Source: Sedimentibacter sp. zth1 (GTDB lineage: Bacteria; Bacillota; Clostridia; Tissierellales; Sedimentibacteraceae). From it: a stretch of DNA of 64,000 bases. The DNA is taken from positions 62,001-126,000 of the forward strand of contig NZ_CP071445.1 in NCBI RefSeq assembly GCF_017352195.1. The letters are read 5' to 3'. Within the stretch, counting starts at the first letter, position 1. Each line of letters starts with the position of its first letter. The translations under genes and the position numbers were made by a program. Positions 16,423 to 61,300 of the stretch are shown here, piece by piece. The notes under the pieces were generated by a model that did not search any database, was not told the origin of the DNA, and saw only the letters and a list, made by a program, of their open reading frames with translations.

Positions 16423-16437
16423 AAAGCAGGTAATATA

Positions 16438-16908: not shown

Positions 16909-17918
16909 TAATAAAAAAATCACTTCAGGCTATAGATTCTCATACAATGGGAGAACCTACTAGAATTATAACAAGTGGTATTCCAAAAATACATGGAAAA
17001 ACAATGGCAGAAAAAAAACAATACTTAGCAAAAAAATTAGATTATATAAGAACTGCAGTTATGAATGAACCAAGAGGACACAATGATATGTTTGGATCAA
17101 TCCTTATGGAACCTATATCTGATGATGCTGATTTTGGTATAGTGTTTATGGATGGTGGAGGATACCTAAATATGTGTGGACACGGTTCTATTGGTGCTGC
17201 TTCAGCAATTGTTGAAACAGGAATGGTAGATGTAGTTGAACCTATAACAAAGGTAGTGCTTGAATCACCAGCAGGACTTATAAAAGCTGATGTAAGAGTA
17301 GAAAATGATAAAGTAAAAGAAGCAACAATTACAAATGTACCTTCGTTTTTATATAAACGCGATTTAAAAATAAATGTACCTGAAGTTGGAGAAGTTACAT
17401 TGGACATTTCATTTGGTGGTAGTTTTTTTGCAATAGTAAGTATAGAGCAACCAAACTTGAATTTTAAAATTTGTCCTGAAAATTCACAAATGATTAAAGA
17501 AATAGGTATTAAAATTAGAGATGAAGTAAATAAAAGTATAATTGTTTCTCATCCATATTTAACACATATAAAAACTGTAGATTTGGTTGAGTTTTATGGT
17601 CCAAGTAAAAATCCAAAAGCTTCTCTTCAAAATGTTGTTGTATTTGGAGCAGGACAAGTTGATAGGTCTCCTTGCGGAACAGGAACAAGCGCTAAGATAG
17701 CAACTTTATTTTCAAAAGGTATATTGAAAATTAATGAAGAATTTGTATATGAAAGTATAACAGGAACATTATTTAAAGCTAAAGCTATTGATGAAATAAA
17801 AGTTGGAGAGTATAATGGTATAGTTCCACAAATTACAGGAAAAGCATATATTACAGGATTTAACCATTTTGTTATAGATGAAGATGATCCATTGAAATAT
17901 GGTTTTAAATTAGGATAA
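16905..17918 (+). CDS. prdF: Proline racemase PrdF
   Basis: 337 residues, the usual length for proline racemase. It supplies D-proline from L-proline for the reductase. Both catalytic cysteines are visible: MCGHGSIGAASAI (Cys near residue 91) and DRSPCGTGTSAK (near residue 256). The N-terminal DSHTMGEPTRI motif is present. Cofactor-independent, cytosolic, homodimeric by family knowledge. The start codon overlaps the prdE stop, so it belongs to the same transcript. Confidence 0.95.
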   Translation: MIIKKSLQAIDSHTMGEPTRIITSGIPKIHGKTMAEKKQYLAKKLDYIRTAVMNEPRGHNDMFGSILMEPISDDADFGIVFMDGGGYLNMCGHGSIGAASAIVETGMVDVVEPITKVVLESPAGLIKADVRVENDKVKEATITNVPSFLYKRDLKINVPEVGEVTLDISFGGSFFAIVSIEQPNLNFKICPENSQMIKEIGIKIRDEVNKSIIVSHPYLTHIKTVDLVEFYGPSKNPKASLQNVVVFGAGQVDRSPCGTGTSAKIATLFSKGILKINEEFVYESITGTLFKAKAIDEIKVGEYNGIVPQITGKAYITGFNHFVIDEDDPLKYGFKLG

Positions 17919-29007: not shown

Positions 29008-30201
29008 ATGGCAAAGCAAAAATATGAAAGAAATAAACCCCATGTTAACATAGGTACAATTGGCCACGTTGACCATGGTAAGACAACATTAACAGCAGCG
29101 ATCACAACTGTATTAAACGCAAGATATGGTTCAGGCGAAGCAGTAGCATTTGACAACATAGATAAAGCACCAGAAGAAAGAGAAAGAGGAATCACAATAT
29201 CAACAGCACACGTTGAGTATGAAACTCCAAACAGACACTATGCACACGTTGACTGCCCAGGCCATGCTGACTATGTAAAGAACATGATAACAGGAGCAGC
29301 ACAAATGGATGGTGGAATATTAGTTGTATCAGCAGCTGATGGACCAATGCCACAAACAAGAGAGCACATCTTATTATCAAGACAAGTTGGTGTTCCACAA
29401 TTAGTAGTATTTTTAAATAAAGAAGATATGGTTGACGATCCAGAGTTAATCGAATTAGTAGAAATGGAAATCAGAGAATTATTATCAGAATATGACTTTG
29501 ATGGAGATAATACACCAATCGTTATAGGATCAGCATTAAAAGCATTAGAAGATCCAAGTAGCGAGTGGGGAGATAAAATAGTAAAATTAATGGAAGCAGT
29601 TGATGAAACAATTCCAACTCCAGAAAGAGACGCAGACAAACCATTCCTAATGCCAGTAGAAGACGTATTCTCAATCACAGGTAGAGGAACAGTTGCAACA
29701 GGAAGAGTTGAAAGAGGAGTATTAAAAGTACAAGATAAAGTTCATATAGTAGGATTATCAGAAAAACCAACAGAAACTGTATGTACAGGAGTAGAAATGT
29801 TCAGAAAATTATTGGATCAAGCAGAAGCAGGAGACAATATCGGAGCATTATTAAGAGGAGTTCAAAGAAGTGATGTTGAAAGAGGTCAAGTTTTAGCGCA
29901 CCCAGGAACAATAACACCACATACAAACTTCTTAGGAGAGGTATATGTATTAACTAAAGAAGAGGGTGGAAGACATACACCATTCTTCAAAGGATACAGA
30001 CCACAATTCTATTTCAGAACAACTGATGTAACTGGATCAATCGAGTTACCAGAAGGCGTAGAAATGGTAATGCCAGGAGACAATGCAACATTTGAAGTAG
30101 ATCTAATCACTCCAATCGCAATGGATGAAGGATTAAGATTTGCTATCAGAGAAGGCGGAAGAACAGTAGGTTCTGGAGTTGTTTCTAAAATCTTAAAATA
30201 A
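29008..30201 (+). CDS. tuf: Elongation factor Tu (copy 1)
   Basis: 397 residues. The GTPase domain has GHVDHGKT (19-26), DCPGHADY and NKED (G4), followed by the two beta-barrel domains. It delivers aminoacyl-tRNA to the ribosome. The protein is identical to the second copy at 45280-46473, and the genes differ at only a handful of third-position bases that I could find. It is placed between sigH/tRNA-Thr and rpmG-secE-nusG and has its own promoter and leader. AGGAGGAG before the ATG. Confidence 0.98.
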
Positions 30202-32914: not shown

Positions 32915-33024
32915 AATTGCTACAATTTAATATCCACCGTAGAAAGCTGGTATTCATTACGATGTAATTTCCAGCCGAGGAAGAAGCTTATATAAAATTC
33001 TCTTCGTCTGCGAGGAGATTTTTT
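32915..33024 (+). ncRNA. L10 leader RNA with internal terminator
   Basis: The region between rplA and rplJ holds a structured leader: CCACCGTAGAAAGCTGG ... CCAGCCGAGGAAG forms a long stem, as in the L10(L12)4-binding leader of Firmicutes. It is followed by a terminator-like hairpin (TTCTCTTCG / CGAGGAGAT, 32998-33019) and a T run (33020-33024). L10-L12 binding is known to control expression of rplJL. A -10-like TATAAT at 32909-32914 precedes it without a clear -35. An AT dinucleotide run lies at about 32864-32879. Confidence 0.7.
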
Positions 33025-33054
33025 ATTGTTGCATGATTGAGGAGGTGTAACTGT

Positions 33055-45279: not shown

Positions 45280-46473
45280 ATGGCAAAGCAAAAATATGAA
45301 AGAAATAAACCCCATGTTAACATAGGTACAATTGGCCACGTTGACCATGGTAAGACAACATTAACAGCAGCAATTACAACTGTATTAAACGCAAGATACG
45401 GTTCAGGCGAAGCAGTAGCATTCGACAACATAGATAAAGCACCAGAAGAAAGAGAAAGAGGAATCACAATATCAACAGCACACGTTGAGTATGAAACTCC
45501 AAACAGACACTATGCACACGTTGACTGCCCAGGCCATGCTGACTATGTAAAGAACATGATAACAGGAGCAGCACAAATGGATGGTGGAATATTAGTTGTA
45601 TCAGCAGCTGATGGACCAATGCCACAAACAAGAGAGCACATCTTATTATCAAGACAAGTTGGTGTTCCACAATTAGTAGTATTTTTAAATAAAGAAGATA
45701 TGGTTGACGATCCAGAGTTAATCGAATTAGTAGAAATGGAAATCAGAGAATTATTATCAGAATATGACTTTGATGGAGATAATACACCAATCGTTATAGG
45801 ATCAGCATTAAAAGCATTAGAAGATCCAAGTAGCGAGTGGGGAGATAAAATAGTAAAATTAATGGAAGCAGTTGATGAAACAATTCCAACTCCAGAAAGA
45901 GACGCAGACAAACCATTCCTAATGCCAGTAGAAGACGTATTCTCAATCACAGGTAGAGGAACAGTTGCAACAGGAAGAGTTGAAAGAGGAGTATTAAAAG
46001 TACAAGATAAAGTTCATATAGTAGGATTATCAGAAAAACCAACAGAAACTGTATGTACAGGAGTAGAAATGTTCAGAAAATTATTGGATCAAGCAGAAGC
46101 AGGAGACAATATCGGAGCATTATTAAGAGGAGTTCAAAGAAGTGATGTTGAAAGAGGTCAAGTTTTAGCGCACCCAGGAACAATAACACCACATACAAAC
46201 TTCTTAGGAGAGGTATATGTATTAACTAAAGAAGAGGGTGGAAGACATACACCATTCTTCAAAGGATACAGACCACAATTCTATTTCAGAACAACTGATG
46301 TAACTGGATCAATCGAGTTACCAGAAGGCGTAGAAATGGTAATGCCAGGAGACAATGCAACATTTGAAGTAGATCTAATCACTCCAATCGCAATGGATGA
46401 AGGATTAAGATTTGCTATCAGAGAAGGCGGAAGAACAGTAGGTTCTGGCGTTGTTTCTAAAATCTTAAAATAA
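45280..46473 (+). CDS. tuf: Elongation factor Tu (copy 2)
   Basis: 397 residues, the same protein as copy 1. Nucleotide differences I found are silent and lie near the ends (e.g. GCG-ATC against GCA-ATT, TAT/TAC and TTT/TTC in the first 160 bases, GGA/GGC near the 3' end). This is the canonical str-operon location after fusA. The upstream region is unlike that of copy 1, so identity is confined to the gene. It is followed by the strongest terminator of the window. Confidence 0.98.
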
Positions 46474-46517
46474 GATAAATATTTAAAATAATTAAATTTA
46501 TTTGTGTTGTGACGTTG

Positions 46518-46556
46518 AAAAAGCTAGGGATTGACCCTAGCTTTTTTTTTTTTTTT
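46518..46556 (+). terminator. Strong terminator of the str operon
   Basis: A 12-bp stem (AAAAAGCTAGGG / CCCTAGCTTTTT), loop ATTGA and an uninterrupted tract of about 16 T residues. Confidence 0.95.
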
Positions 46557-47107
46557 GTGTGTGTAAAAAATAAGTCTATTTTATTCAATTATATTAGCTA
46601 TATTCCAGTTAATATCTTTTTCTATTACTCATTTTATAATGATAAATCCATTTTGATTCAAAAATTATTAATAATATAAACATTTTTATATATATTAATA
46701 TATTTTTTTATAATTTATTTAAAATATTACTTAATTTTTGAATATATATATCAAAAATATGCAATAAAACGTTACAAGTATAAGATTTTTAGCTTTATTT
46801 GCTTTAGCTAAATAGCAGGCTTTGACATATATTTTATAGTTAATTAAGTACAATGTATACTACAAGTTGTTTATATTTATACAAGATATTTTAAAAGTTA
46901 TAAAAGATAAATTTATATAATCTTTAGCGTAAAATTAATTGTACATAAATATTAAATATACAAATGTTTTTAACAGAATAGTAATTTACTAAAAAGTCAA
47001 AAACATTAGTAAAAAATATTCTGTTATTAATATTACAGTGTGTTATTAATGTAGCATATATTAATGTGCAATTAACAATAAATAAAAAAGTTTTAAGGAG
47101 GATTCTT
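46557..47107 (+). promoter_or_regulatory. AT-rich gene-free region upstream of the SLH protein
   Basis: No plausible gene on either strand. A TTGACA at 46822-46827 may be a -35, but no good -10 sits at 16-18 bp (TACAAT at 46849-46854 is 21 bp away). A nested inverted repeat spans 46972-47025: outer arms AACAGAATA / TATTCTGTT, inner arms TTTACTAA / TTAGTAAA. GGAGG before the start codon is at 47097-47101. Probably a long leader, or a leftover junction of the island. Confidence 0.5.
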
Positions 47108-49798
47108 ATGAAAAAAGTAAGGAGAGTAGTATCATTTATTATTGTATTATCAATGTTCATGTTGTCATTGACAAGTGTTTATGCGCAAATTACAGATATT
47201 GACACACACTGGGCAAAAAATGAAATTAACTACTTAGTAGAAAAGGGTATTTTGACAGGTTATCCAGATGGTACATTTAAACCAGAAAACAATGTTAGTA
47301 AAGTAGAATTTTACAAAATTATAAACAACACAATGGGTTATAAAGAAGAAGCTACCTTTGAATTTAAAGATGTTAGATCACCAGAGGAAGATTGGTTTTA
47401 CTATGATGTATCTAAAGCTGTGAAGGCAGGGTACATAACAGATGGAGAATTTCTATATCCAACAGAATTTATAACAAGAGAAGAAGTAGCAAGAATTATT
47501 GGTGTTACATTTAAATTAAATGAAAATCCAGAATTTACAGCTTACTTTAAAGATAATTTATTAATTTCATTAGATGCATTAGGTTTTATAGGAACCTTAA
47601 AAGAAAAAGAATATATTATAGGTTTTCCTGATGAAACCTTTAGACCAACTAATTCTATTAAAAGAGCAGAACTAGTAAAAATGCTTTATAATATTTTAGT
47701 TATAGAGGGAATACCTCAAAAAGCAGATTTGACAAAATACAAAGCAGCATTAGCAGCAGTTAATGAATCTGACTATACAAAACATAGTTGGGCTGCTTAT
47801 CAAAACATAGTTTTAGCAAATGTGGTTACAGAAGATAATACACAGGATGAAGTAGATGCAGCAACTGAAACAATAATAAATGCACAAAAAGAATTAGTGA
47901 AAGTATATAGATATAAACCGGTGGTTCCAGAAGAACCAGAAGAGCCAGAAGAACCAGAAAAACCAGAAGAGCCAGTAATAGATAAAATAGAATTGGCAGC
48001 AAAGATATCAGAGGCAGAAAGATTAAATGAAGAAGACTATACCGCAGAAACATGGACAGTATTAGAAACAGCATTAGGAAGAGCAATAGAAGTAAACAAC
48101 AATACAGAAGCAACACAGGAACAAGTAAATGAAGCATTAACAGCATTAGAAGATGCAATACAAGGATTAGAAGAAAAACAAGAAGAGCCAGTAGTAGATA
48201 AAACAGCATTGACAGCAAAGATATCAGAGGCAGAAAGATTAAATGAAGAAGACTATACCGCAGAAACATGGACAGTATTAGAAACAGCATTAGGAAGAGC
48301 AATAGAAGTAAACAACAATACAGAAGCAACACAGGAACAAGTAAATGAAGCATTAACAGCATTAGAAGATGCAATACAAGGATTAGAAGAAAAACAAGAA
48401 GAGCCAGTAGTAGATAAAACAGCATTGACAGCAAAGATATCAGAGGCAGAAAGATTAAATGAAGAAGACTATACCGCAGAAACATGGACAGTATTAGAAA
48501 CAGCATTAGGAAGAGCAATAGAAGTAAACAACAATACAGAAGCAACACAGGAACAAGTAAATGAAGCATTAACAGCATTAGAAGATGCAATACAAGGATT
48601 AGAAGAAAAACAAGAAGAGCCAGTAGTAGATAAAACAGCATTGACAGCAAAGATATCAGAGGCAGAAAGATTAAATGAAGAAGACTATACCGCAGAAACA
48701 TGGACAGTATTAGAAACAGCATTAGGAAGAGCAATAGAAGTAAACAACAATACAGAAGCAACACAGGAACAAGTAAATGAAGCATTAACAGCATTAGAAG
48801 ATGCAATACAAGGATTAGAAGAAAAACAAGAAGAGCCAGTAGTAGATAAAACAGCATTGACAGCAAAGATATCAGAGGCAGAAAGATTAAATGAAGAAGA
48901 CTATACCGCAGAAACATGGACAGTATTAGAAACAGCATTAGGAAGAGCAATAGAAGTAAACAACAATACAGAAGCAACACAGGAACAAGTAAATGAAGCA
49001 TTAACAGCATTAGAAGATGCAATACAAGGATTAGAAGAAAAACAAGAAGAGCCAGTAGTAGATAAAACAGCATTGGCAGCAAAGATATCAGAGGCAGAAA
49101 GATTAAATGAAGAAGACTATACCGCAGAAACATGGACAGTATTAGAAACAGCATTAGGAAGAGCAATAGAAGTAAACAACAATACAGAAGCAACACAGGA
49201 ACAAGTAAATGAAGCATTAACAGCATTAGAAGATGCAATACAAGGATTAGAAGAAAAACAAGAAGAGCCAGTAGTAGATAAAACAGCATTGACAGCAAAG
49301 ATATCAGAGGCAGAAGGATTAAATGAAGAAGACTATACACCAGAAACATGGACAGTATTAGAAACAGCATTAGGAAGAGCAATAGAAGTAAACAACAATA
49401 CAGAAGCAACACAGGAACAAGTAAATGAAGCATTAACAGTATTAGAAAATGCAATACAAGGATTAGAAGAAAAACAAGAAGAGCCGGTAGTAGTTGCAAC
49501 TTATCATCCACAATTATATATGCCGACTATTGGAAAAATCTCTGTAGAAGTTAATAACGTAACAAATGCTGTAAAATTTAGTGTTACATATCATCTTTCT
49601 CCTGATGAACAAGGTAATGAAGTAATAAGAACTACAGAAATTATTGATATAAACACACCTTTAACAACTGAAGGATATCCTATAATGTTTTATAATCCTA
49701 GTACAACAGGATACGATACAATAACTATTTGCATATATGATGCAAATGAAAATTTACTATACACTTTTGAAAGTGTAGTGCCAGTAACTGCACGATAG
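47108..49798 (+). CDS. S-layer-homology (SLH) surface protein with FIVAR repeats
   Basis: 896 residues from ATG 47108 (GGAGG upstream; an in-frame GTG at 47066 is rejected). Signal peptide 1-26 (VVSFIIVLSMFMLSLTSVYA). Three SLH domains lie at about 28-200: AKNEINYLVEKGILTGYPDG and GFPDETFRPTNSIKRAE are clear, the middle one diverged. These anchor the protein to pyruvylated wall polymer. One divergent FIVAR unit (about 208-265) and a Pro-Glu spacer (EEPEEPEEPEKPEEP) follow, then seven nearly identical 72-residue FIVAR units (about 292-795) and a unique C-terminal domain of about 100 residues. The repeats likely form a helical stalk. The ligand is unknown. Confidence 0.9.
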   Translation: MKKVRRVVSFIIVLSMFMLSLTSVYAQITDIDTHWAKNEINYLVEKGILTGYPDGTFKPENNVSKVEFYKIINNTMGYKEEATFEFKDVRSPEEDWFYYDVSKAVKAGYITDGEFLYPTEFITREEVARIIGVTFKLNENPEFTAYFKDNLLISLDALGFIGTLKEKEYIIGFPDETFRPTNSIKRAELVKMLYNILVIEGIPQKADLTKYKAALAAVNESDYTKHSWAAYQNIVLANVVTEDNTQDEVDAATETIINAQKELVKVYRYKPVVPEEPEEPEEPEKPEEPVIDKIELAAKISEAERLNEEDYTAETWTVLETALGRAIEVNNNTEATQEQVNEALTALEDAIQGLEEKQEEPVVDKTALTAKISEAERLNEEDYTAETWTVLETALGRAIEVNNNTEATQEQVNEALTALEDAIQGLEEKQEEPVVDKTALTAKISEAERLNEEDYTAETWTVLETALGRAIEVNNNTEATQEQVNEALTALEDAIQGLEEKQEEPVVDKTALTAKISEAERLNEEDYTAETWTVLETALGRAIEVNNNTEATQEQVNEALTALEDAIQGLEEKQEEPVVDKTALTAKISEAERLNEEDYTAETWTVLETALGRAIEVNNNTEATQEQVNEALTALEDAIQGLEEKQEEPVVDKTALAAKISEAERLNEEDYTAETWTVLETALGRAIEVNNNTEATQEQVNEALTALEDAIQGLEEKQEEPVVDKTALTAKISEAEGLNEEDYTPETWTVLETALGRAIEVNNNTEATQEQVNEALTVLENAIQGLEEKQEEPVVVATYHPQLYMPTIGKISVEVNNVTNAVKFSVTYHLSPDEQGNEVIRTTEIIDINTPLTTEGYPIMFYNPSTTGYDTITICIYDANENLLYTFESVVPVTAR
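47981..49492 (+). repeat. Seven tandem 216-bp repeats (FIVAR units)
   Basis: Units start at 47981, 48197, 48413, 48629, 48845, 49061 and 49277. Units 2 to 5 appear identical at nucleotide level. Unit 1 and unit 6 differ slightly at the start (Leu-Ala instead of Leu-Thr). Unit 7 has a few changes (Gly for Arg, Pro for Ala, Val and Asn near the end). Such near-identity means recent expansion or ongoing homogenisation. Confidence 0.97.
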
Positions 49799-49818
49799 TA
49801 AAATGTATTAGATAAAAG

Positions 49819-49846
49819 CCCTCCCCAAAGAACTCTTTGGGGAGGG
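49819..49846 (+). terminator. GC-rich hairpin after the SLH gene
   Basis: A 12-bp perfect stem (CCCTCCCCAAAG / CTTTGGGGAGGG) with loop AACT. It is unusually GC-rich for this genome. The T tract after it is poor (GTTATTG), so it may terminate by stem strength or protect the mRNA end. Confidence 0.7.
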
Positions 49847-49856
49847 GTTATTGAGC

Positions 49857-50169
49857 ATATAACATGTTTTGGGGTACCCAGTTGCCATTTGTGTTGGTGT
49901 AACTGAGTCAGCTTCTAACTAATTATATAATAAGGATTTAGTCCTTCTTATATAACTTAAAAATAAGGAGGTGAATATTCTTAAATTTGTATAATAAAAT
50001 GGTATAGGAGGTGAAATATATAAGTATTTCTTAACAGTAATTTGTAGGCATAAACTAAATATAATATGTTTAGACTTTAGTAATGAAATTTACATCAAAA
50101 TTTTAATTTATTAAAATTTTTATTAATTTCTTTGATGTAAAAGTAAAAATTAAAAGGAGAAGACTATAA
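49857..50169 (+). promoter_or_regulatory. Structured region upstream of the first subtilase
   Basis: No gene of normal size. Contents in order: GGGTACCC palindrome and CAGTT/AACTG arms (49871-49905), a 14-bp hairpin with one mismatch (TTATATAATAAGGA / TCCTTCTTATATAA, 49923-49955), and two perfect Shine-Dalgarno-like sequences without a start codon at normal distance (AAGGAGGTGA at 49965, AGGAGGTGA at 50006). A hairpin TTTACATCAAA / TTTGATGTAAA (50089-50141) follows, then the real ribosome binding site (AAAAGGAGAAG). Probably a long regulatory leader. Confidence 0.5.
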
Positions 50170-53100
50170 ATGCTAAGTAACCTAAAAGTTAAAAAGAATT
50201 TTGCCGTACTATTAACATTATTAATGTTAATAAGCATGATTCCATCATTTGCTTATGCAAATGACAGTAATATTAGCTCAGCAAAAGAAGAATTAAAACA
50301 AGAAGCATTATCAAAGATTACACCAGAAGTAATGAATGATTTTGACGAAGACCTAATAGAAGTACTAGTGTATATGAAAGAACAAGTAGACACAGAAATG
50401 ATAGCTGAGGCTACAAAATCTGCTGTGTCAGATGTAATGACCCCATATAATATAAAATTAGAAGTAAGAAAAGGAGTAGTTGAAGCTTTAAAAGATGAAG
50501 CAACTACTACTCAAAAAAATATAATCAAATATTTAGATCAAGAAATGGATAAAGGAAATGTTGAAGAATTTACATCTTATCACATAGTCAATATGATATA
50601 TGTAAAAGCAACAAAAGAAGTAATAGAAAATATTTCATTTATGTCAGAAGTAGAGAAAATATATAAAAATAAAGTTCACACATTAGAAGTTACAGAAATG
50701 AGTGAAGAGATAAAACCAACAACAGAGGGCATAGAGTGGAACATTGAAAAAGTTAATGCAGACCAAACTTGGGAATTGGGAATTGATGGTAGCGGAGTTG
50801 TAGTAGGAAGCCTAGATTCAGGAGTAGATTGGACACATCCAGCGATAAAGAATAAATGGAGAGGATATGATCCATCAACAGGAGAAACTAATCCTGAAGG
50901 TAGCTGGTTTGACCCAGTATATAATTCAACATTACCAGAAGATTCAGATGAGCATGGAACTCATGTTATGGGAACAGTATTAGGACAAGAGGAAGATGGA
51001 AGTAATAAAATAGGTGTAGCACCAGGAGCAAGATGGATAGCAGCAAGAGTATTTAACACTTCAGGTTCAACTACAGGTACAATATTATTATCAGCAGCAG
51101 AATGGATGCTTCAACCAAATGGAGATCCAGCAAATGCACCTGATGTTGTCAACAACTCATGGGGTGGTGGATCAGGAATAGATGAATGGTATAGAGATGC
51201 TGTAAGGAACTGGAGAGCAGCAGGAATATTCCCAGTATTTTCAGCAGGAAACCAGAGAGCGGGCGAACCAGCACCATGGCCAGGATCAATATCATGCCCA
51301 GCAAATTATCCAGAATCATTTGCAGTAGCAGCAACAGATATAAATAATATGAGAGCTTCGTTCTCAAAATTAGGTCCATCACCATATGATGAAAGTTTAA
51401 TAAAACCAGAAATATCAGCACCAGGAGTAAGTATTAGATCATCAATACCAGGTGGTGGATACCAAGGTGGATGGTCAGGAACATCAATGTCAGCACCACA
51501 TATTACAGGAACAGTAGCATTGTTGTTATCAGCAAACGCATCATTGACAGTGGATGATATAGATGAAGTTATCAAGAGTACAGCAATGCCATTAGTTGAC
51601 ACATCATATCCAACAGCACCTAATATGTCATACGGTTATGGTTTAGTTGATACATTTGAAGCAGTATCACAAGTAGCATCAGGAACAGGATATATTTCTG
51701 GTAAAGTGTTAGTACCTGGCGAAGATACAAGTGAGCCAGTTATAAATCACGAACAAATGGTAACAGAAATATATATAGGTTCAGATACAGATATAATAGC
51801 AGAGATATCTGATGATGTAGCTATAACAGAAGTAGAGTTATTAGTAAAACAAGAAGGAAAATCCTACTGGATGTTAACTCCAATGAATAGAATATCAGGA
51901 GATCATAAAGCAGGAATATACAAAGGAACAATAAGCTATGATATGCTAGGAGGAAATAGTATTACATATAAGATAAAAGCTAGAGATTATGGAGGAGATG
52001 CTATTGTTTCGCCGAATTATAATATAGAAGTTAAATTTGGTATTGTTCCAGATGAATATACTCAAGGCTTTGAAGGCGGAGTAGAAGGTTGGATATTTGG
52101 TGGAGAATGGGAATATGGAGTACCATCAGGAACAAGTCCAGAAGCATATGAAGGAGAAAAATTAGCAGGAACTAAAATAGCTGAAAATTATGCAAATGGT
52201 GCAAATAGCTTACTAGTAACTCCACCAATAGATTTAAGAAATGCTGATCTAGGTTCAGCAACATTAAGATTCCAAGAATGGTACGAAACTGAAAACAATT
52301 ATGATAAATGCTATGTATATGTTACAAACGACTATGGTAGCACTTGGACACAAGTAGGCCCAATCCGTACAGGAAATGTAACGGAATGGATGGAAACAGT
52401 AATTAATCTTAATGAATATATAGGCTGTTTAGATCCAGTATTTGTTGGATTCCGCTTTACTTCAGATAGTTCAAATGTAAAACCAGGTTGGTTTATAGAC
52501 AATGTAAGATTAATTGGTGTAGATACTGAAGCTCCAGCAACTCCTATGGATTTAGTTGCAGAGGCTACTCTTACAGGAATAAAATTAAATTGGACTGCTG
52601 TAGATGATAGTGATGTATCACATTATAATGTGTATCGTTCATTAACTTCAGGAGAAGGTTATGAATTTATAGCAAATGCATCTTCTAATATGTTTATAGA
52701 TACAACACTAGAAGCTGGAATTACTTACTATTATAAAGTTGCAGCAGTAGACATTTCAGAAAATACAAGTGAACTAAGCGAAGAAGTATTTGGTCAAATA
52801 TCAGAAACAACAGTGTTATTTAGTACAGATTTTGAAAATGATGATGCAGGATTTGTTACAGGAGTTACAGCTGGAACTGAAAATCCATGGGAATTGGGAA
52901 TACCTACGTCAGGATCTAATGAAGCAACATCAGGAGTAAATCTGTGGGCAACTAATCTTGAAGGAAACTACGAGCATAGAACTGATGCATATATTCAAAG
53001 CCCAACTATACAAATCCCAGCAGACATAAACGCTGTACTTACATTCAATCACTGGGTAGATATGGAAGGAACTAGCACGTTATATGATTATGGTCAAGTG

Positions 53101-55512
53101 CAAATTTCTAAAGATAATGGAAGTACTTGGACTAATATAACACCTGTAACAGGGGGAAAATATGGCAAGAGAGTTCAAGCTTGGGCAAATGAAGAAATAG
53201 CTTTAGAAGGATATAATGGAGAAACTATAAATATAAGATTCTTATTCCATTCAGATGGTTCTGGAGCATATACCGGATGGTATATAGATGATGTAGTTGT
53301 GCTTGGAATGGATACTACCCCAGAAGCTTTAGCAGAACAAATAAACTTAGAAAAAGAAGAAGAACCAGAAGTTAAAAAAGCTGATTATGTAGATCCAGAA
53401 GAATTAAGTTATAGCTTAAAGAAAGACAAAACAAATAATTATGTAACAATAGAAGATGAAGAAGTACAAAATATGCAAGCTGCATATGTTGGTGGAATCC
53501 CTGCTACAGATGCAGTAGTAACAGTACTAGAGACAGGAAGAAGTGTTAAAGTAAATCCAGTTAACGGTAAATTCTATATGAGACACGTACTTGGAGAAAA
53601 CTTTACACTAAGAGCAGAAGCATATGGATATTATGCAAATGAAGTAACTGTAAATGTAAATGAAGATGAAACAACAAGAGTAAATATCATGTTAGAACCA
53701 AAACCACAGGGAACTATTATAGGAAGAGTATTTGACAGATATTATAATAACGGAGCAGCTAATGCTGTAATAAGAGTGGTAGAAGACCCTAAAGTAGCTC
53801 CAGTAGTAGCAGATGAAGATGGATACTTTAGAATTAACAAAGTATACGAAGGAACATATACACTTAAAGTGGTAGCAGATGGATTTGAACCGGGAGAAAT
53901 TACTGTAGATGTATACGAAGATGAAATAACAAATGTTGATATACCACTTAAGAGATTTGTAGGTTATGAAGATGATATAATCTATGACGATGGAGTAGGA
54001 GAAAACGCATTAGTATTAAATAGTGCAGGTTACGGATTAGCAGTAAGATTTACACCTGAACAATACGGTAAAGTAAAAGGAGCAAATGTTTTCTTCTGGG
54101 ATAATAGCTGGCCATCACCAGGAGGAAATAGAATAGGTTTTGCAATATACGGAATAGATGATAATGGAGCACCATATCAAGTAGGAGATCCTATATTTGT
54201 TGATGTAATAAGAGGAGAATTTAACTATATAGATTTATCAAGTTTAGGCTTCTCAACAGATAGAGATTTCTATATCTCAACGATACAAGATGCAGCAGGT
54301 TCTTCTTGCCCAGGAACAGGTATAGATGAAAACTCTCCATACGGAGATAGATCATATTTGAATCTTGGTGGAGAATTCAAGCTAATATCAGAAGAAAATA
54401 TCCAAGGTGGAATAATGATCAGAGCAAGAATGGAATACTCAGTAGCTGTACCAGTTATAACTAATCTAAATGAATTAACATATACAAATCAAGACTCAAT
54501 AACTGTAGAAGGAACAGTTACAGCAGATGGTAAAGTAAATGTATATCTAAATGGTGAAAAGGTAACTACAGTAGATACAGAAAACAAAGAATTTGCAGTA
54601 GAAATAAATTTACCATTAGATGAAAATACAATTATGGTAACAGCAGAAATGGACGGAATAGAAACAGAGCCATCATCAGCAGTGACAGTAATAAAAGACA
54701 AGATAGCACCAGAATTAATAGTAGAAGAACCAGAAGATAATTTAAAAATCAATGAAGAAGTAGTTCATGTTGTAGGTAATGTACAAGATAATATAGAAAT
54801 AACACAATTATTGATCAACGAAGTAGAAGTAGCAATAGATGAAGATGGAAACTTCCATGAAAGATTGATGGTAAATCAAGGTGTTAATATTATTACAGTT
54901 AAAGCAATAGATATTGCAGGAAATGAAACTGTTATTGAAAGAACAGTAACTGTAGAATTAACAGAACCAGAAATTACAAACATACTTCCAGCAGAAGATT
55001 TAGAGCTTTATGTTGATGATATATTAACTGTTAGCTTTAATGCACCTACAGGTGGAGAAGGATATTTCAGATTATTGCTTCCATTTGAAACTTCAGATAA
55101 TAATATAGGAATTCCTATGACAGAAGAAGATGGAGTATATACTGGTACTTGGACTGTTCCTGAAGGATTTGTTGCTACAGACTTACAAGTTGAAGTAGTA
55201 TATGTTAGTCAGTATGGAACTACTGTATCCGAAATAGCAGAGGGTAGAGTTACTCTAATAGGTAGAATGGAAGATCTTCCAGAAAGTACAATAATAATTA
55301 ACGGTGAAGCTTTTGATATGAATTTCATAAATAGTAATCCTGAAGGACAAATAAAATTAATAGAATGGTTAAATTCAGGTAATCAAGCTTATGTCAAACT
55401 TGATAAAAATACTATAGTTGATATGGAAGGTGAAATAATTAGTATTGAATTATTACCACAACGTATAACTTATATTGATATGAGTGGCAATATAACATTC
55501 TATGAAAAATAA
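50170..55512 (+). CDS. Giant secreted subtilisin-like protease (copy 1)
   Basis: 1780 residues, a bacillopeptidase F-like S8 serine protease. Signal peptide 1-30, propeptide to about 180, catalytic domain about 195-505. The triad is Asp216 (SLDSGVDWTHP), His262 (DEHGTHVMG) and Ser439 (GTSMSAPHITG), with oxyanion Asn361 (SAGN). After it: an MAM-like beta domain (about 630-780), a fibronectin type III domain (about 785-870), a second MAM-like domain (about 880-1045), and two carboxypeptidase-regulatory-like domains (about 1110-1260). Then come a beta domain, two Ig-like segments (about 1425-1595) and a C-terminal domain. No SLH or sortase motif, so it is probably released or bound by its beta domains. 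Confidence 0.93.
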   Translation: MLSNLKVKKNFAVLLTLLMLISMIPSFAYANDSNISSAKEELKQEALSKITPEVMNDFDEDLIEVLVYMKEQVDTEMIAEATKSAVSDVMTPYNIKLEVRKGVVEALKDEATTTQKNIIKYLDQEMDKGNVEEFTSYHIVNMIYVKATKEVIENISFMSEVEKIYKNKVHTLEVTEMSEEIKPTTEGIEWNIEKVNADQTWELGIDGSGVVVGSLDSGVDWTHPAIKNKWRGYDPSTGETNPEGSWFDPVYNSTLPEDSDEHGTHVMGTVLGQEEDGSNKIGVAPGARWIAARVFNTSGSTTGTILLSAAEWMLQPNGDPANAPDVVNNSWGGGSGIDEWYRDAVRNWRAAGIFPVFSAGNQRAGEPAPWPGSISCPANYPESFAVAATDINNMRASFSKLGPSPYDESLIKPEISAPGVSIRSSIPGGGYQGGWSGTSMSAPHITGTVALLLSANASLTVDDIDEVIKSTAMPLVDTSYPTAPNMSYGYGLVDTFEAVSQVASGTGYISGKVLVPGEDTSEPVINHEQMVTEIYIGSDTDIIAEISDDVAITEVELLVKQEGKSYWMLTPMNRISGDHKAGIYKGTISYDMLGGNSITYKIKARDYGGDAIVSPNYNIEVKFGIVPDEYTQGFEGGVEGWIFGGEWEYGVPSGTSPEAYEGEKLAGTKIAENYANGANSLLVTPPIDLRNADLGSATLRFQEWYETENNYDKCYVYVTNDYGSTWTQVGPIRTGNVTEWMETVINLNEYIGCLDPVFVGFRFTSDSSNVKPGWFIDNVRLIGVDTEAPATPMDLVAEATLTGIKLNWTAVDDSDVSHYNVYRSLTSGEGYEFIANASSNMFIDTTLEAGITYYYKVAAVDISENTSELSEEVFGQISETTVLFSTDFENDDAGFVTGVTAGTENPWELGIPTSGSNEATSGVNLWATNLEGNYEHRTDAYIQSPTIQIPADINAVLTFNHWVDMEGTSTLYDYGQVQISKDNGSTWTNITPVTGGKYGKRVQAWANEEIALEGYNGETINIRFLFHSDGSGAYTGWYIDDVVVLGMDTTPEALAEQINLEKEEEPEVKKADYVDPEELSYSLKKDKTNNYVTIEDEEVQNMQAAYVGGIPATDAVVTVLETGRSVKVNPVNGKFYMRHVLGENFTLRAEAYGYYANEVTVNVNEDETTRVNIMLEPKPQGTIIGRVFDRYYNNGAANAVIRVVEDPKVAPVVADEDGYFRINKVYEGTYTLKVVADGFEPGEITVDVYEDEITNVDIPLKRFVGYEDDIIYDDGVGENALVLNSAGYGLAVRFTPEQYGKVKGANVFFWDNSWPSPGGNRIGFAIYGIDDNGAPYQVGDPIFVDVIRGEFNYIDLSSLGFSTDRDFYISTIQDAAGSSCPGTGIDENSPYGDRSYLNLGGEFKLISEENIQGGIMIRARMEYSVAVPVITNLNELTYTNQDSITVEGTVTADGKVNVYLNGEKVTTVDTENKEFAVEINLPLDENTIMVTAEMDGIETEPSSAVTVIKDKIAPELIVEEPEDNLKINEEVVHVVGNVQDNIEITQLLINEVEVAIDEDGNFHERLMVNQGVNIITVKAIDIAGNETVIERTVTVELTEPEITNILPAEDLELYVDDILTVSFNAPTGGEGYFRLLLPFETSDNNIGIPMTEEDGVYTGTWTVPEGFVATDLQVEVVYVSQYGTTVSEIAEGRVTLIGRMEDLPESTIIINGEAFDMNFINSNPEGQIKLIEWLNSGNQAYVKLDKNTIVDMEGEIISIELLPQRITYIDMSGNITFYEK

Positions 55513-55527
55513 TCTAAATCTTTATAG

Positions 55528-55559
55528 AAAGTTATCCCTATGTTTTAGGGATAACTTTT
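55528..55559 (+). terminator. Terminator between the two subtilase genes
   Basis: A 13-bp stem (AAAGTTATCCCTA / TAGGGATAACTTT), loop TGTTT and a short T end. It makes the two genes separate or partly separate transcripts. Confidence 0.75.
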
Positions 55560-55633
55560 CTAAATCAATTACAGAATTTATTAATTTACTTTGATATAAA
55601 TGGTTAAATAATCTTATAAAGGGGAGACCTAGA

Positions 55634-58600
55634 ATGCTAAGTAATCTAAAAGTTAAAAAGAATTTTGCCGTAATATTAACATTATTAATGATAATAAGCA
55701 TGATTCCATCATTTGCTTATGCAAATGACAGTAATATTAGCTCAGCAAAAGAAGAATTAAAACAAGAAGCATTATCAAAGATTACACCAGAAGTAATGAA
55801 TGATTTTGACGAAGACCTAATAGAAGTACTAGTGTATATGAAAGAACAAGTAGACACAGAAATGATAGCTGAGGCTACAAAATCTGCTGTGTCAGATGTA
55901 ATGACCCCATATAATACAAAATTAGAAGTAAGAAAAGGAGTAGTTGAAGCTTTAAAAGATGAAGCAACTACTACTCAAAAAAATATAATCAAATATTTAG
56001 ATCAAGAAATGGATAAAGGAAATGTTGAAGAATTTACATCTTATCACATAGTCAATATGATATATGTAAAAGCAACAAAAGAAGTAATAGAAAATATTTC
56101 ATTTATGTCAGAAGTAGAGAAAATATATAAAAATAAAGTTCACACATTAGAAGTTACAGAAATGAGTGAAGAGATAAAACCAACAACAGAGGGCATAGAG
56201 TGGAACATTGAAAAAGTTAATGCAGACCAAACTTGGGAATTGGGAATTGATGGTAGCGGAGTTGTAGTAGGAAGCCTAGATTCAGGAGTAGATTGGACAC
56301 ATCCAGCGATAAAGAATAAATGGAGAGGATATGATCCATCAACAGGAGAAACTAATCCTGAAGGTAGCTGGTTTGACCCAGTATATAATTCAACATTACC
56401 AGAAGATTCAGATGAGCATGGAACTCATGTTATGGGAACAGTATTAGGACAAGAGGAAGATGGAAGTAATAAAATAGGTGTAGCACCAGGAGCAAGATGG
56501 ATAGCAGCAAGAGTATTTAACACTTCAGGTTCAACTACAGGTACAATATTATTATCAGCAGCAGAATGGATGCTTCAACCAAATGGAGATCCAGCAAATG
56601 CACCTGATGTTGTCAACAACTCATGGGGTGGTGGATCAGGAATAGATGAATGGTATAGAGATGCTGTAAGGAACTGGAGAGCAGCAGGAATATTCCCAGT
56701 ATTTTCAGCAGGAAACCAGAGAGCGGGCGAACCAGCACCATGGCCAGGATCAATATCATGCCCAGCAAATTATCCAGAATCATTTGCAGTAGCAGCAACA
56801 GATATAAATAATATGAGAGCTTCGTTCTCAAAATTAGGTCCATCACCATATGATGAAAGTTTAATAAAACCAGAAATATCAGCACCAGGAGTAAGTATTA
56901 GATCATCAATACCAGGTGGTGGATACCAAGGTGGATGGTCAGGAACATCAATGTCAGCACCACATATTACAGGAACAGTAGCATTGTTGTTATCAGCAAA
57001 CGCATCATTGACAGTGGATGATATAGATGAAGTTATCAAGAGTACAGCAATGCCATTAGTTGACACATCATATCCAACAGCACCTAATATGTCATACGGT
57101 TATGGTTTAGTTGATACATTTGAAGCAGTATCACAAGTAGCATCAGGAACAGGATACATTTCTGGTAAAGTGTTAGTACCTGGCGAGGATACAAGTGAGC
57201 CAGTTATAAATCACGAACAAATGGTAACAGAAATATATATAGGTTCAGATACAGATATAATAGCAGAGATATCTGATGATGTAGCTATAACAGAAGTAGA
57301 GTTATTAGTAAAACAAGAAGGCAAATCCTACTGGATGTTAACTCCAATGAATAGAATATCAGGAGATCATAAAGCAGGAATATACAAAGGAACAATAAGC
57401 TATGATATGCTAGGAGGAAATAGTATTACATATAAGATAAAAGCTAGAGATTATGGAGGAGATGCTGTTGTTTCACCAGATTATAATATAGAAGTTAAAT
57501 TTGGTATTGTTCCAGATGAATATACTCAAGGCTTTGAAGATGGAGTAGAAGGCTGGATATTTGATGGAGAATGGGAATATGGAGTACCATCAGGAACAAG
57601 CCCAGAAGCATATGAAGGAGAAAAATTAGCAGGAACTAAAATAGATGGAAATTATGCAAATGATGCAGATAGCTTGTTAGTAACTCCACCAATAGATTTA
57701 AGAAATGCTGATCTAGGTTCAGCAACATTAAGATTACAAGAATGGTTCGAAACAGAATACTATTACGATATATGTTATGTTTATGTTTCAAACGATTATG
57801 GTGATACATGGACAATAGTAGGCACCCGTACAGGAATTAGAATGGAATGGATAGACACAGTAATTAATCTTAATGATTATATAGGTTCTCTAGATCCAGT
57901 ATTTGTTGCATTCCGCTTTACTTCAGATAGTTCAAATGCAAATCCAGGTTGGTATATAGACAATGTAAGATTAATTGGTGTAGGTACTGACGCTATGAAA
58001 GTTTCAGAAAACCAAGTAAGTCAAGAAGAAGCGTCAAAACCTGAAATTATGAAGTCGGATTATGTAGATCCAGAAGAATTAAAATATAGCTTAAAGAAAG
58101 ACAAAACAAATAATTATGTAACAATAGAAGATGAAGAAGTAAAAAGTATACCAATGGTATATGGTGGAATCCCTGCTACTGATGCAGTAGTAACAGTACT
58201 GGAGACAGGAAGAAGTGTTAAAGTAAATCCAGTTAACGGTAAATTCTATATGAGACACGTACTTGGAGAAAACCTTACACTAAGAGCAGAAGCATATGGA
58301 TATTATGCAAATGAAGTAACTGTAAATGTAAATGAAGATGAAACAACAAGAGTAAATATCATGTTAGAACCAAAACCACAGGGAACTATTATAGGAAGAG
58401 TATTTGACAGATATTATAATAACGGAGCAGCTAATGCTGTAATAAGAGTGGTAGAAGACCCTAAAGTAGCTCCAGTAGTAGCAGATGAAGATGGATACTT
58501 TAGAATTAACAAAGTATATGAAGGAACATATACACTTAAAGTGGTAGCAGATGGATTTGATCCAGGAGAAATTACTGTAGATGTATACGAAGATGAAATA

Positions 58601-60490
58601 ACAAATGTTGATATACCACTTAAGAGATTTGTAGGTTATGAAGATGATATAATCTATGACGATGGAGTAGGAGAAAACGCATTAGTATTAAATAGTGCAG
58701 GTTACGGATTAGCAGTAAGATTTACACCTGAACAATACGGTAAAGTAAAAGGAGCAAATATTTTCTTCTGGGATAATAGCTGGCCATCACCAGGAGGAAA
58801 TAGAATAGGTTTTGCAATATACGGAATAGATGATAATGGAGCACCATATCAAGTAGGAGATCCTATATTTGTTGATGTAATAAGAGGAGAATTTAACTAT
58901 ATAGATTTATCAAGTTTAGGCTTCTCAACAGATAGAGATTTCTATATCTCAACGATACAAGATGCAGCAGGTTCTTCTTGCCCAGGAACAGGTATAGATG
59001 AAAACTCTCCATACGGAGATAGATCATATTTGAATCTTGGTGGAGAATTCAAGCTAATATCAGAAGAAAATATCCAAGGTGGAATAATGATCAGAGCAAG
59101 AATGGAATACTCAGTAGCTGTACCAGTTATAACTAATCTAAATGAATTAACATATACAAATCAAGACTCAATAACTGTAGAAGGAACAGTTACAGTAGAT
59201 GGTAAAGTAAATGTATATCTAAATGGTGAAAAGGTAACTACAGTAGATACAGAAAACAAAGAATTTGCAGTAGAAATAAATTTACCATTAGATGAAAATA
59301 CAATTATGGTAACAGCAGAAATGGACGGAATAGAAACAGAGCCATCATCAGCAGTGACAGTAATAAAAGACAAAATAGCACCAGAATTAATAGTAGAAGA
59401 ACCAGAAGATAATTTAAAAATCAATACAGAAGTAGTTCATGTTGTAGGCAATGTACAAGATAATATAGAAATAACACAATTATTGATCAACGAAGTAGAA
59501 GTAGCAATAGATGAAGATGGAAACTTCCATGAAAGATTGATGGTAAATCAAGGTGTTAATATTATTACAGTTAAAGCAATAGATATTGCAGGAAATGAAA
59601 CAGTTGTTGAAAGAACAGTAACTGTAGAATTAGCAGAACCTGAAATTACTAATATACAGCCATCAGAAGATTTAGAGCTTTATGTTGGTGATGTATTGAC
59701 TGTTAGCTTCAATGCGCCAACAGGTGGAGAAGGCTACTTTAGATTATTGCTTCCATTTGAAGTTTCAGATAACAAGACAGGAATTCCTATGACAGAAGAA
59801 GATGGAGTATATACTGGTACTTGGACTGTTCCTGAAGGATTAGAGGGAAACAATATACAGGTCGAAGTTGTGTATATCAGCGAATTTGGATATGAGGTAA
59901 CAGCAATTGCAGATGGAAGATTAACAATAATATTAGAAGAGACTTCAATCATAAACATACAGCCATCAGAAGATACAGAACTTAGAGAGGGAGATGCATT
60001 AGAAGTAAGTTTTAATGGACCTAGTAGATGTAGTGGATACTTTAGATTATTATTTTCACCTGAAATGTCAAATAATGAACTTGAAATTCCAATGATTGAA
60101 GTAACACCAGGATTCTATAGGGGTTTATGGACAGTACCAGAAACAATGGTAGTAAGTAACTTACAAATTGAAGTATTGTTAGTAACTGAAGATAATATTA
60201 GAATGCTTGATATAGCTGAAGGCCGTATTACAGTGGTAGGACAGATGAATATGCTTCCAGTAAATTCAGTAATAGTTGGTGAAGAAGCATATGACATAAA
60301 TTATTTAAATAGTAACTCGGAAGCGCAAGAAAAATTAATCGAGTGGTTAGATTTAGGCAATCAAGTTTATATAAAACTTGATAATGATGATATAGTAGAC
60401 TTTGATGGTCAAATTGTTAGTTATGAATTATTACCACAACGTATTACTTATTATAATTCAAACGGAAATATAACATTCTATTCAAAATAG
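55634..60490 (+). CDS. Giant secreted subtilisin-like protease (copy 2)
   Basis: 1618 residues, a paralogue of the preceding gene. Signal peptide, propeptide and catalytic domain are almost identical (same Asp216, His262, Ser439). It has one MAM-like domain, which differs at many positions from copy 1 (e.g. LQEWFETEYYYDICYVYVSN against FQEWYETENNYDKCYVYVTN). It lacks the fibronectin III and second MAM-like domains (about 250 residues). The carboxypeptidase-regulatory and Ig-like parts are again near-identical. It has an extra copy of the C-terminal domain (IQPSEDTELREGDALEVSF, after IQPSEDLELYVGDVLTVSF). AGGGGAG lies 10 bases before the ATG. Substrate preference is unknown. Confidence 0.93.
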   Translation: MLSNLKVKKNFAVILTLLMIISMIPSFAYANDSNISSAKEELKQEALSKITPEVMNDFDEDLIEVLVYMKEQVDTEMIAEATKSAVSDVMTPYNTKLEVRKGVVEALKDEATTTQKNIIKYLDQEMDKGNVEEFTSYHIVNMIYVKATKEVIENISFMSEVEKIYKNKVHTLEVTEMSEEIKPTTEGIEWNIEKVNADQTWELGIDGSGVVVGSLDSGVDWTHPAIKNKWRGYDPSTGETNPEGSWFDPVYNSTLPEDSDEHGTHVMGTVLGQEEDGSNKIGVAPGARWIAARVFNTSGSTTGTILLSAAEWMLQPNGDPANAPDVVNNSWGGGSGIDEWYRDAVRNWRAAGIFPVFSAGNQRAGEPAPWPGSISCPANYPESFAVAATDINNMRASFSKLGPSPYDESLIKPEISAPGVSIRSSIPGGGYQGGWSGTSMSAPHITGTVALLLSANASLTVDDIDEVIKSTAMPLVDTSYPTAPNMSYGYGLVDTFEAVSQVASGTGYISGKVLVPGEDTSEPVINHEQMVTEIYIGSDTDIIAEISDDVAITEVELLVKQEGKSYWMLTPMNRISGDHKAGIYKGTISYDMLGGNSITYKIKARDYGGDAVVSPDYNIEVKFGIVPDEYTQGFEDGVEGWIFDGEWEYGVPSGTSPEAYEGEKLAGTKIDGNYANDADSLLVTPPIDLRNADLGSATLRLQEWFETEYYYDICYVYVSNDYGDTWTIVGTRTGIRMEWIDTVINLNDYIGSLDPVFVAFRFTSDSSNANPGWYIDNVRLIGVGTDAMKVSENQVSQEEASKPEIMKSDYVDPEELKYSLKKDKTNNYVTIEDEEVKSIPMVYGGIPATDAVVTVLETGRSVKVNPVNGKFYMRHVLGENLTLRAEAYGYYANEVTVNVNEDETTRVNIMLEPKPQGTIIGRVFDRYYNNGAANAVIRVVEDPKVAPVVADEDGYFRINKVYEGTYTLKVVADGFDPGEITVDVYEDEITNVDIPLKRFVGYEDDIIYDDGVGENALVLNSAGYGLAVRFTPEQYGKVKGANIFFWDNSWPSPGGNRIGFAIYGIDDNGAPYQVGDPIFVDVIRGEFNYIDLSSLGFSTDRDFYISTIQDAAGSSCPGTGIDENSPYGDRSYLNLGGEFKLISEENIQGGIMIRARMEYSVAVPVITNLNELTYTNQDSITVEGTVTVDGKVNVYLNGEKVTTVDTENKEFAVEINLPLDENTIMVTAEMDGIETEPSSAVTVIKDKIAPELIVEEPEDNLKINTEVVHVVGNVQDNIEITQLLINEVEVAIDEDGNFHERLMVNQGVNIITVKAIDIAGNETVVERTVTVELAEPEITNIQPSEDLELYVGDVLTVSFNAPTGGEGYFRLLLPFEVSDNKTGIPMTEEDGVYTGTWTVPEGLEGNNIQVEVVYISEFGYEVTAIADGRLTIILEETSIINIQPSEDTELREGDALEVSFNGPSRCSGYFRLLFSPEMSNNELEIPMIEVTPGFYRGLWTVPETMVVSNLQIEVLLVTEDNIRMLDIAEGRITVVGQMNMLPVNSVIVGEEAYDINYLNSNSEAQEKLIEWLDLGNQVYIKLDNDDIVDFDGQIVSYELLPQRITYYNSNGNITFYSK

Positions 60491-60525
60491 TAAAATTATA
60501 TCTTAATTTATAACAATACTATAGA

Positions 60526-60555
60526 ATGGCCTATAATTTTAAAATTATAGGCCAT
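60526..60555. repeat. Perfect 30-nt palindrome after the second subtilase
   Basis: ATGGCCTATAATTTT followed directly by AAAATTATAGGCCAT. It has no loop spacer and no T run, so it is a palindrome or mRNA-end hairpin rather than a classical terminator. It marks the end of the surface-protein island. Confidence 0.8.
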
Positions 60556-60771
60556 ATCAGTATGTCAAAAAGCTACATAGTTTTAATGTTTAAAAGTATT
60601 AAGTTTAACCTTAAATTACCAAAATATTTTTATTTACAAGGTAGAAAAATTAATGTATACTGTTAAAGTTGCAAAGATTAGTATAAAACATGACATTAAT
60701 ACTTACAACATATTTTAAACAATCTTAAATATTAATTTTTCTTAACAATTGAAAAATAATAAAAAAAAGAC

Positions 60772-60800
60772 TTGCATTAACTGCTATATTAGTGTACTAT
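60772..60800 (+). promoter_or_regulatory. Possible promoter of the S10 operon
   Basis: TTGCAT (60772-60777), 17 bp, TACTAT (60795-60800); an alternative -10, TATGAT, is at 60798-60803. A moderate match, but placed just before the rpsJ leader. Confidence 0.45.
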
Positions 60801-60988: not shown

Positions 60989-61300
60989 ATGGCAAGCACT
61001 CAAAAAATAAGAATTAGGTTAAAGGCTTATGACCATCAATTGATTGATCAATCTGCACAAAAAATTGTAGAGACTGCTAAAGCAACTGGAGCAACTGTAG
61101 CTGGACCAATTCCACTACCTACAGAAAAACAAGTTGTTACAATATTAAGAGCAGTTCACAAGTACAAAGATTCTAGAGAGCAGTTTGAGCAAAGAACACA
61201 CAAAAGATTAATTGACATCACTAATCCTACTCCTAAAACAGTAGACTCATTAATGAAACTTAATTTGCCTGCTGGAGTAGACATTGAAATTAAGCTATAA
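60989..61300 (+). CDS. rpsJ: 30S ribosomal protein S10
   Basis: 103 residues from ATG 60989 (AAGGAGGT upstream); the longer in-frame opening from 60935 is part of the leader. Motifs: [38 protein letters not shown] and [15 protein letters not shown]. First gene of the S10 operon; also a NusB partner in antitermination. Confidence 0.97.

Follow-up and report, generated by a model that had tools for sequence, protein, structure and literature searches.

A probable split envelope-protease cassette at the tuf-rpsJ junction of Sedimentibacter sp. zth1

In Sedimentibacter sp. zth1, three same-strand genes lie between tuf and rpsJ and encode an SLH/FIVAR surface protein (P0001) and two giant subtilases (P0002 and P0003). 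On the sequence evidence, they are probably the local copy of a conserved cassette that digests protein at the cell surface, a split envelope protease anchored to the S-layer and feeding Stickland fermentation. The window analyzed here is a 64,000-nucleotide stretch (contig NZ_CP071445.1; G000:C1:62001-126000) of a 3.13-Mb single-contig genome, and all coordinates below are positions in it. From the tuf stop to the rpsJ start is ~14.5 kb (14,518 between match ends), which agrees with the first-pass annotation of this DNA, where a stretch of ~14 kb with three surface-protein-type genes had been described. In the proposed arrangement, an exported anchor would bind pyruvylated wall polymer via its SLH repeats, project through a FIVAR stalk and end in an Ig-like C-terminal domain (Cdom). 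Large secreted subtilases encoded by the adjacent downstream genes would be kept at or near the surface, each ending in a common tail of ~80 aa, in many cases with one or two beta domains before it; the tail or a beta domain may dock onto the anchor. The subtilases would cut protein into peptides that the cell then ferments by the Stickland route.

P0001 (47108..49798, + strand) has 896 aa when read from the ATG at 47108. Its open reading frame (ORF) begins at a GTG at 47066; the ATG at 47108 is the better start, as it has AAGGAGG before it and opens a signal-peptide-like stretch. After this N-terminus, whose hydrophobic segment was read as signal-peptide-like from the sequence, come SLH repeats, a linker, seven FIVAR repeats spaced at 72 aa and Cdom. 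The SLH match scores 80.9 bits against a cut-off of 20.8, with two stretches passing Pfam and a third, degenerate one visible by eye. We infer that P0001 is exported and wall-bound via SLH. The FIVAR array (47956..49493, +), which would be the stalk, comprises 7.1 copies of a 216-bp unit with 99% matches, suggesting a recent expansion or homogenization; a 561-aa antisense frame over these repeats is the longest other ORF in the gap and has no Pfam match. Cdom (49496..49795, +; ~90-100 aa) is an Ig/FnIII-like C-terminal domain common to proteins that adjoin subtilases in relatives. Its model (mean pLDDT 85) has no Foldseek match at E <= 0.001, and a second look returned middling matches, many of them to domains of Ig or FnIII type (highest Z 6.3, with rmsd 3.9 and 88 aligned).

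Both subtilases, P0002 (50170..55512, +; 1780 aa) and P0003 (55634..60490, +; 1618 aa), match the PF00082 S8 domain at 197.4 bits (cut-off 21.8). The catalytic triad Asp216/His262/Ser439, assigned by the subtilisin motifs, is intact in both, and the two are predicted proteases from sequence. P0002 has a signal-peptide-like N-terminus followed by S8, InhA-like MAM, CarboxypepD_reg and Glucodextran_B matches and a C-terminal beta domain with the tail. P0003, which also opens with a signal-peptide-like stretch and has MAM-like, CarboxypepD_reg and Glucodextran_B matches, is a tandem copy of P0002 in which 262 aa (MAM/linker) are absent and an extra beta domain of 102 aa is present near the C-terminus. 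The C-terminal module common to both consists of one or two beta domains and the ~80-aa tail; it lies at 54967..55509 (+) in P0002 (beta domain starting at 54967, the tail at 55273) and at 59639..60487 (+) in P0003 (beta domains starting at 59639 and 59942, the tail at 60251). In the module model (mean pLDDT 92.8) the beta part matches Ig-like domains and the tail is barely covered. The best fold match of the beta part is GlgE (Z 11.2, rmsd 2.1, 93 aligned), and the Deinococcus HPI S-layer protein reaches 9.9; having a fold in common is no evidence of function. For the tail there is no Pfam match, and comparison of its profile with solved structures yielded a single, insignificant match (E 0.42). 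Over residues 32-500 (470 codons, prodomain and catalytic domain; Nei-Gojobori) the two genes have zero synonymous differences. The number of synonymous substitutions per site (Ks) is 0.007-0.11 in the middle and ~0.6-0.7 over residues 1610-1780, where the extra repeat makes the C-terminal alignment less certain. This patchwork of an identical front and diverged C-termini fits gene conversion between the tandem copies.

The evidence that the three genes belong together comes from relatives. A Cdom search of 27 genomes of the family found the window's genome (G000), G008, G009 and G011 at E <= 5e-5, with two weak matches at E 0.03 and 0.06, and a search with the protease module found the same four at E <= 0.001. 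Such coincidence in an identical 4/27 would arise once in 17,550 by a bare draw, with relatedness ignored. In these four carriers the module search found the tail in no protein other than subtilases. Seven genomes have a Cdom gene immediately before a subtilase gene, namely these four, Alkaliphilus serpentinus (L087), a Tissierellia metagenome-assembled genome (MAG; L088) and Clostridium sp. Cult3 (L099), and the flanking genes differ between the cassette loci (by reading). A scan of the named collection with one module pattern gave 13 loci in ten genomes, including G008, G009 and G011. The upstream gene is visible at seven module loci (the window, L087, L088, L096, L097, L099 and G008 C84) and encodes Cdom in six. 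By ORF ends, the spacing between the Cdom gene and the subtilase gene is 58-126 bp in L087, L088, L096, L097 and L099. The earlier proposal that the three genes form one surface proteolytic system is thus supported by co-occurring C-terminal domains and by this adjacency; the functional coupling itself we infer from neighborhood.

The relatives also vary the parts. The Cdom protein of G009 carries SLH, FIVAR and a copy of the protease-like beta domain (E 4.9e-13), and the next gene encodes a giant subtilase of another layout, 63% identical to the Alkaliphilus PA/fn3_5 subtilase; the anchor of G011 likewise has SLH, FIVAR and a protease-like beta domain (E 3.7e-8). PA/fn3_5 subtilases are here called type I and MAM/CarboxypepD_reg subtilases type II, and in L087, L088 and L099 the genes run Cdom, type I, type II. 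Stretches of the S8 region are no more than ~23-35% identical between the two types, so their common tail is not explained by close enzyme kinship. Among 16 tail-bearing ORFs elsewhere, 11 have a subtilase domain and five are partial ORFs that align to the P0002 C-terminus. Alignment A4 holds 14 rows, chosen from 17 tail-search rows plus two window rows; excluded were L089 (almost the same as L091), a false match in the L096 anchor and three rows with the tail only. The ancestral cassette was probably the anchor, then a type I and then a type II subtilase. The window lacks type I and has two copies of type II, whose catalytic halves have stayed identical and whose C-terminal modules have diverged. 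A type I remnant in the gaps of the window was considered and rejected, as four type I proteins gave no tblastn hit at E <= 1.

A CsaB wall-polymer pyruvyl transferase is present in the genome (TIGR03609, 276.9 bits; cut-off 213.1). A D-proline reductase cluster lies in the window at 11248-17918, with PrdC, PrdA and PrdD over their cut-offs. PrdB scores 263.7 of 300 bits, under its cut-off, and its ORF ends at a TGA that is likely a selenocysteine codon. A proline racemase-type gene in the cluster scores 555.4 against a cut-off of 556, and a PrdE-like ORF was recognized by eye. CsaB and the prd genes are in line with SLH anchoring and with the proline branch of Stickland fermentation.

The location of the cassette was compared with the tuf-rpsJ junction in the order and in the family. 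The order sample comprises 120 genomes, with rpsJ found in 119 and tuf at threshold in 73. Pairs were counted where a single contig carries both genes with tuf <=20 kb upstream, which holds for 27 genomes outside the family; in the genomes left out, tuf was missed, stands on a different contig or is too distant (G127 comes nearest, at ~21 kb), and family f4 of the sample has no pair within 20 kb. The gap is 326-515 bp in 26 of the 27. The remaining genome, G052, has a 3.2-kb gap with an SLH protein and a cupin protein (L160, C48:59600-63300; a different family). Within the family, rpsJ was matched in 22 of the 27 genomes and the junction could be measured in 16. It spans 2.0-14.5 kb in 11 of these, the window having the longest insert, and 348-654 bp in five. 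The rest comprise G021 (at least 4.35 kb with cargo, tuf off the contig); G012, G017, G011 and G008, whose contigs end <650 bp upstream of rpsJ; G005, with a partial rpsJ at a contig start; and G006, G013, G018, G022 and G024, with no rpsJ match at threshold. With an insert in 11 of the 16 genomes that allow measurement, this junction varies within the family.

The family inserts hold the sodium:alanine symporter AgcS, a regulator of PAS/sigma-54/Fis type, or the two together (by reading; one representative of each was scanned), and that of G001 holds a trans-4-hydroxy-L-proline dehydratase (1435.4 bits against a cut-off of 1100 in one representative), its radical-SAM activase and a related regulator. 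This amino-acid-type cargo is found at L039, L042, L043, L047, L049-L051, L053-L055 and L057. The best NCBIfam match of the cargo regulator is PrdR, at 373.5 bits and far below the cut-off of 795, and the regulator was not found in the window's genome at E 1e-120. Of the two things that the first-pass annotation named as refuting its reading, the first applies in the family, where unrelated genes are common at this place; the second does not as regards occurrence: the anchor and protease gene types do co-occur elsewhere. Insertions between the str and S10 operons have also been described in print, with other cargo in other lineages, namely bfd-bfr in Gammaproteobacteria and ilvEBNC-leuABCD with a putative amino-acid transporter in Bacilli (PMC8046335). 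The island of 14.5 kb exceeds the 10 kb given there as the upper size for counting an insertion. The unusual location is less remarkable in itself than the cassette, and its operon-splitting aspect is ordinary once relatives are compared.

The right edge of the island is formed by a promoter-like TTGCAT-17-TACTAT (60772..60800, +), the S10-Clostridia leader RF03136 (60813..60893, +) and rpsJ, the first gene of the S10 operon (60989..61300, +). The leader scores 39.7 bits, above the gathering threshold of 35.1, and has the same position before rpsJ as the known S10-Clostridia leader, with nothing notable that differs. The ~300 bp that precede rpsJ were aligned for the window and 20 family relatives; of the 21 relatives in which rpsJ was matched, G005, which is cut, was excluded. 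TTGATT, a 17-bp spacer and TATTAT or TATCAT are found in 20/20 relatives, with an insert or without, at the place matching the window's site, and the start of the leader downstream is nearly identical in all 20. By this alignment, the S10 promoter and leader are ancestral. They had earlier been taken as new, which the alignment contradicts, and the idea that the island splits one transcript finds no support. The island sits between units that were already separately transcribable, and with the tuf terminator on one side and the ancestral S10 promoter on the other it need not interrupt an operon transcribed as one. At the left edge, tuf (45280-46473) is followed by a strong intrinsic-terminator-like hairpin with a long T run (46517..46547, +), as the first-pass annotation had it, and a loose scan with no shuffle control, suggestive at most, found a hairpin and T run 3' of tuf in 13 of 15 relatives and none in L038 and L041. 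Promoter-like matches between P0001 and subtilase 1 mean little, with 72 in the region against 88 in shuffles.

As to why the genes are here, it is rather likely that the place has no functional meaning and that the cassette landed there neutrally, between transcription units that are each autonomous. Both the presence of one S10 promoter and leader in all aligned relatives and the varied cargo at the junction fit this, as does a model in print that has genes invading the regions between operons (PMC8046335). The amino-acid-related nature of the named family cargo speaks against it, as a weak and post hoc point. A recent mobile element was rejected as an explanation. No transposase or integrase was seen among the gap ORFs of >=80 aa (judged by reading), in agreement with the earlier statement that a transposase is absent. 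The longest direct word shared by the flanks is 10 nt, not above chance (mean 10.9 in 100 shuffles), and island codon use is host-like when compared with 15 other genes of the window.

Several observations weigh against a surface cassette of coupled anchor and proteases. Some concern the sample: the co-occurrence rests on four genomes, three of which are MAGs, and five of seven inner branches of the type II subtilase tree are open. Others concern incomplete or deviating loci. G008 C84 is a second module subtilase without a Cdom neighbor, and the Cdom protein of G008 that adjoins a P0002-like subtilase has 277 aa and no Pfam match, so neither SLH nor FIVAR. G011 has SLH on one ORF and FIVAR-beta-Cdom on another, with unknown bases between them, and its subtilase, of the same kind as that of G009, is represented on the contig by the first 167 aa (inhibitor prodomain). 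L088 has its SLH on a separate gene just before the Cdom gene. The L099 anchor is a fragment with no FIVAR over Pfam, FIVAR-like by eye, and the L087 anchor is also a fragment, so these three Cdom proteins need not be SLH/FIVAR stalks. A module profile run on the class sample matched 5/391 genomes (the window's, G175, G375, G227 and G472). G175 (L111) and G375 (L112) have type II-like subtilases with two C-terminal beta domains, no tail and no Cdom neighbor. In G227 (L114, L115, L116) and G472 (L113), relatives of the tail follow immediately on the signal peptide in other surface proteins of Clostridiaceae type, and in the two that were scanned this part has no Pfam match. The Cdom search of an equally large class sample (391 genomes) listed the window and four weak distant matches (E 1.8e-5 to 6.9e-3; ORFs of 1112-12732 aa) and none of the other module-search genomes, G227 and G472 included. 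Given this N-terminal position and the lack of a listed Cdom match for these genomes, the tail could be a surface domain of more general use. Finally, a gap of 371 bp separates P0001 from subtilase 1, and in it lies a strong hairpin (49819..49846, no strand assigned; 12 bp, G+C-rich, without a long T run on the + strand) that may attenuate read-through into subtilase 1, so their co-transcription is less clear than that of the corresponding genes in relatives. Two irregular ORFs were also noted: that of the G175 subtilase is in two pieces, and at ~8485 of L058 (G008 C84) the tail of the module subtilase continues in another frame with a stop, by decay or assembly error.

The tail relatives of G227 and G472 and the gap with its hairpin are also what lends weight to an unlikely yet serious alternative, in which the proteases bind the wall by their own C-terminal tail or are released, and the SLH/FIVAR protein is an unlinked neighboring adhesin or S-layer component. 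The host's many other SLH matches (45 in the genome) point the same way. Set against this are the adjacency of Cdom and subtilase genes in seven genomes with differing flanks and the beta domain found in both anchor and protease of G009 and G011. Single-chain fusions of like parts are, moreover, among the architectures listed in PMC2605481, and these argue that stalk and protease work together.

It is also unlikely, by a slightly wider measure, that in Tissierellia-type amino-acid fermenters the split cassette amounts to a scaffold-and-enzyme system for protein with a cellulosome-like logic. The anchor would then display Cdom as a receptor, in some genomes with a beta copy, and several giant subtilases of two distantly related layouts would dock via the common tail. 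Gene conversion would keep the catalytic halves alike while the docking modules diverge, giving one activity at several surface positions.

There is a small chance that the proteases work on the cell's own surface, in maturing or shedding its proteins (S-layer processing or detachment), and do not serve nutrition. For the S-layer-bound protease STABLE of Staphylothermus, precursor cleavage and peptide supply have both been suggested in the text of PMC5744192. Two catalytically identical giant copies, with a second type in relatives, indirectly suit bulk digestion better; with carriers numbering 4/27 in the family, SLH surfaces do not generally need the set; and the prd genes lie within the same window. 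Equally improbable is a str-S10 junction favored for amino-acid-supply genes through dosage or growth-coupled expression, a pattern that was spotted post hoc in the family cargo (AgcS, the sub-threshold PrdR-like regulator, the trans-4-hydroxy-L-proline dehydratase and activase) and in the ilv-leu genes and putative amino-acid transporter of Bacilli, and to which the SLH and cupin proteins of G052 and the bfd-bfr of Gammaproteobacteria (PMC8046335) run counter.

Elsewhere in the window, a second tuf copy lies at 29008-30201, both copies encoding an identical 397-aa EF-Tu, and an Rfam L10 leader at 32919-33033. At 1-2466, a recombinase-like ORF (548 aa, C1:61559-63205) meets an apparently truncated FeoB (1165-2466, - strand), by eye, and the left 60 kb of the contig hold several near-identical ORFs that resemble, by eye, group II intron reverse transcriptases.

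If the reading as a surface protease cassette is correct, Cdom, the beta domain and the tail would be named, small and testable domains that hold proteases on the surface of Stickland fermenters, and the cassette would possibly be a protein-degrading counterpart of scaffolded enzyme systems. Cdom and the protease tail belong to no Pfam family. The str-S10 junction, a frequent landmark of gene order, is a variable site in one family, where S10 has a conserved promoter and leader of its own. Literature searches for an SLH/FIVAR/subtilase system or for Sedimentibacter proteolysis showed nothing on this cassette among the papers listed, a statement that holds for those searches alone.

Among known systems, PrtP-type proteinases are sortase-anchored, whereas P0001-P0003 have no LPxTG motif and no hydrophobic C-terminal tail: their last 150 aa contain no 19-residue window above 1.6 on the Kyte-Doolittle scale. 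The cassette also differs from the cellulosome, at the level of sequence, since cohesin and dockerin had no Pfam match in P0001-P0003 (E <= 0.01) or in the scanned proteins of relatives (E <= 0.001). Closer are the envelope subtilases listed in PMC2605481, which include the single chains Sub_N-Subt-PA-DUF1034-(FIVAR)5-Gram_pos_anchor of Lactobacillus johnsonii and YSIRK-Subt-PA-DUF1034-(FIVAR)3-Gram_pos_anchor. As in the cassette, subtilase, FIVAR and wall anchor serve together there, and the layout of PA with fn3_5 (PF06280, formerly DUF1034) is that of the type I subtilase in L087. Unlike these single chains with a Gram-positive anchor, the cassette is split over genes, uses SLH and has C-terminal domains outside Pfam families, and the window itself is without the type I subtilase. 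The same source lists Thermoanaerobacter tengcongensis NP_624131.1, a subtilase-PA-DUF1034-Big_2 protein with a C-terminal SLH pair; it is likewise a Firmicute surface subtilase with SLH, but it is one chain with Big_2 and, in the layout listed there, no FIVAR. The nearest two-protein parallel, in likeness of arrangement only, is tetrabrachion-STABLE of Staphylothermus marinus, in which a stalk carries a separate subtilisin-family protease and peptide supply for fermentation has been suggested (PMC5744192). That stalk is an archaeal coiled coil to which binding of the protease is observed, whereas in the Sedimentibacter cassette the corresponding docking is proposed from gene neighborhood and shared domains.

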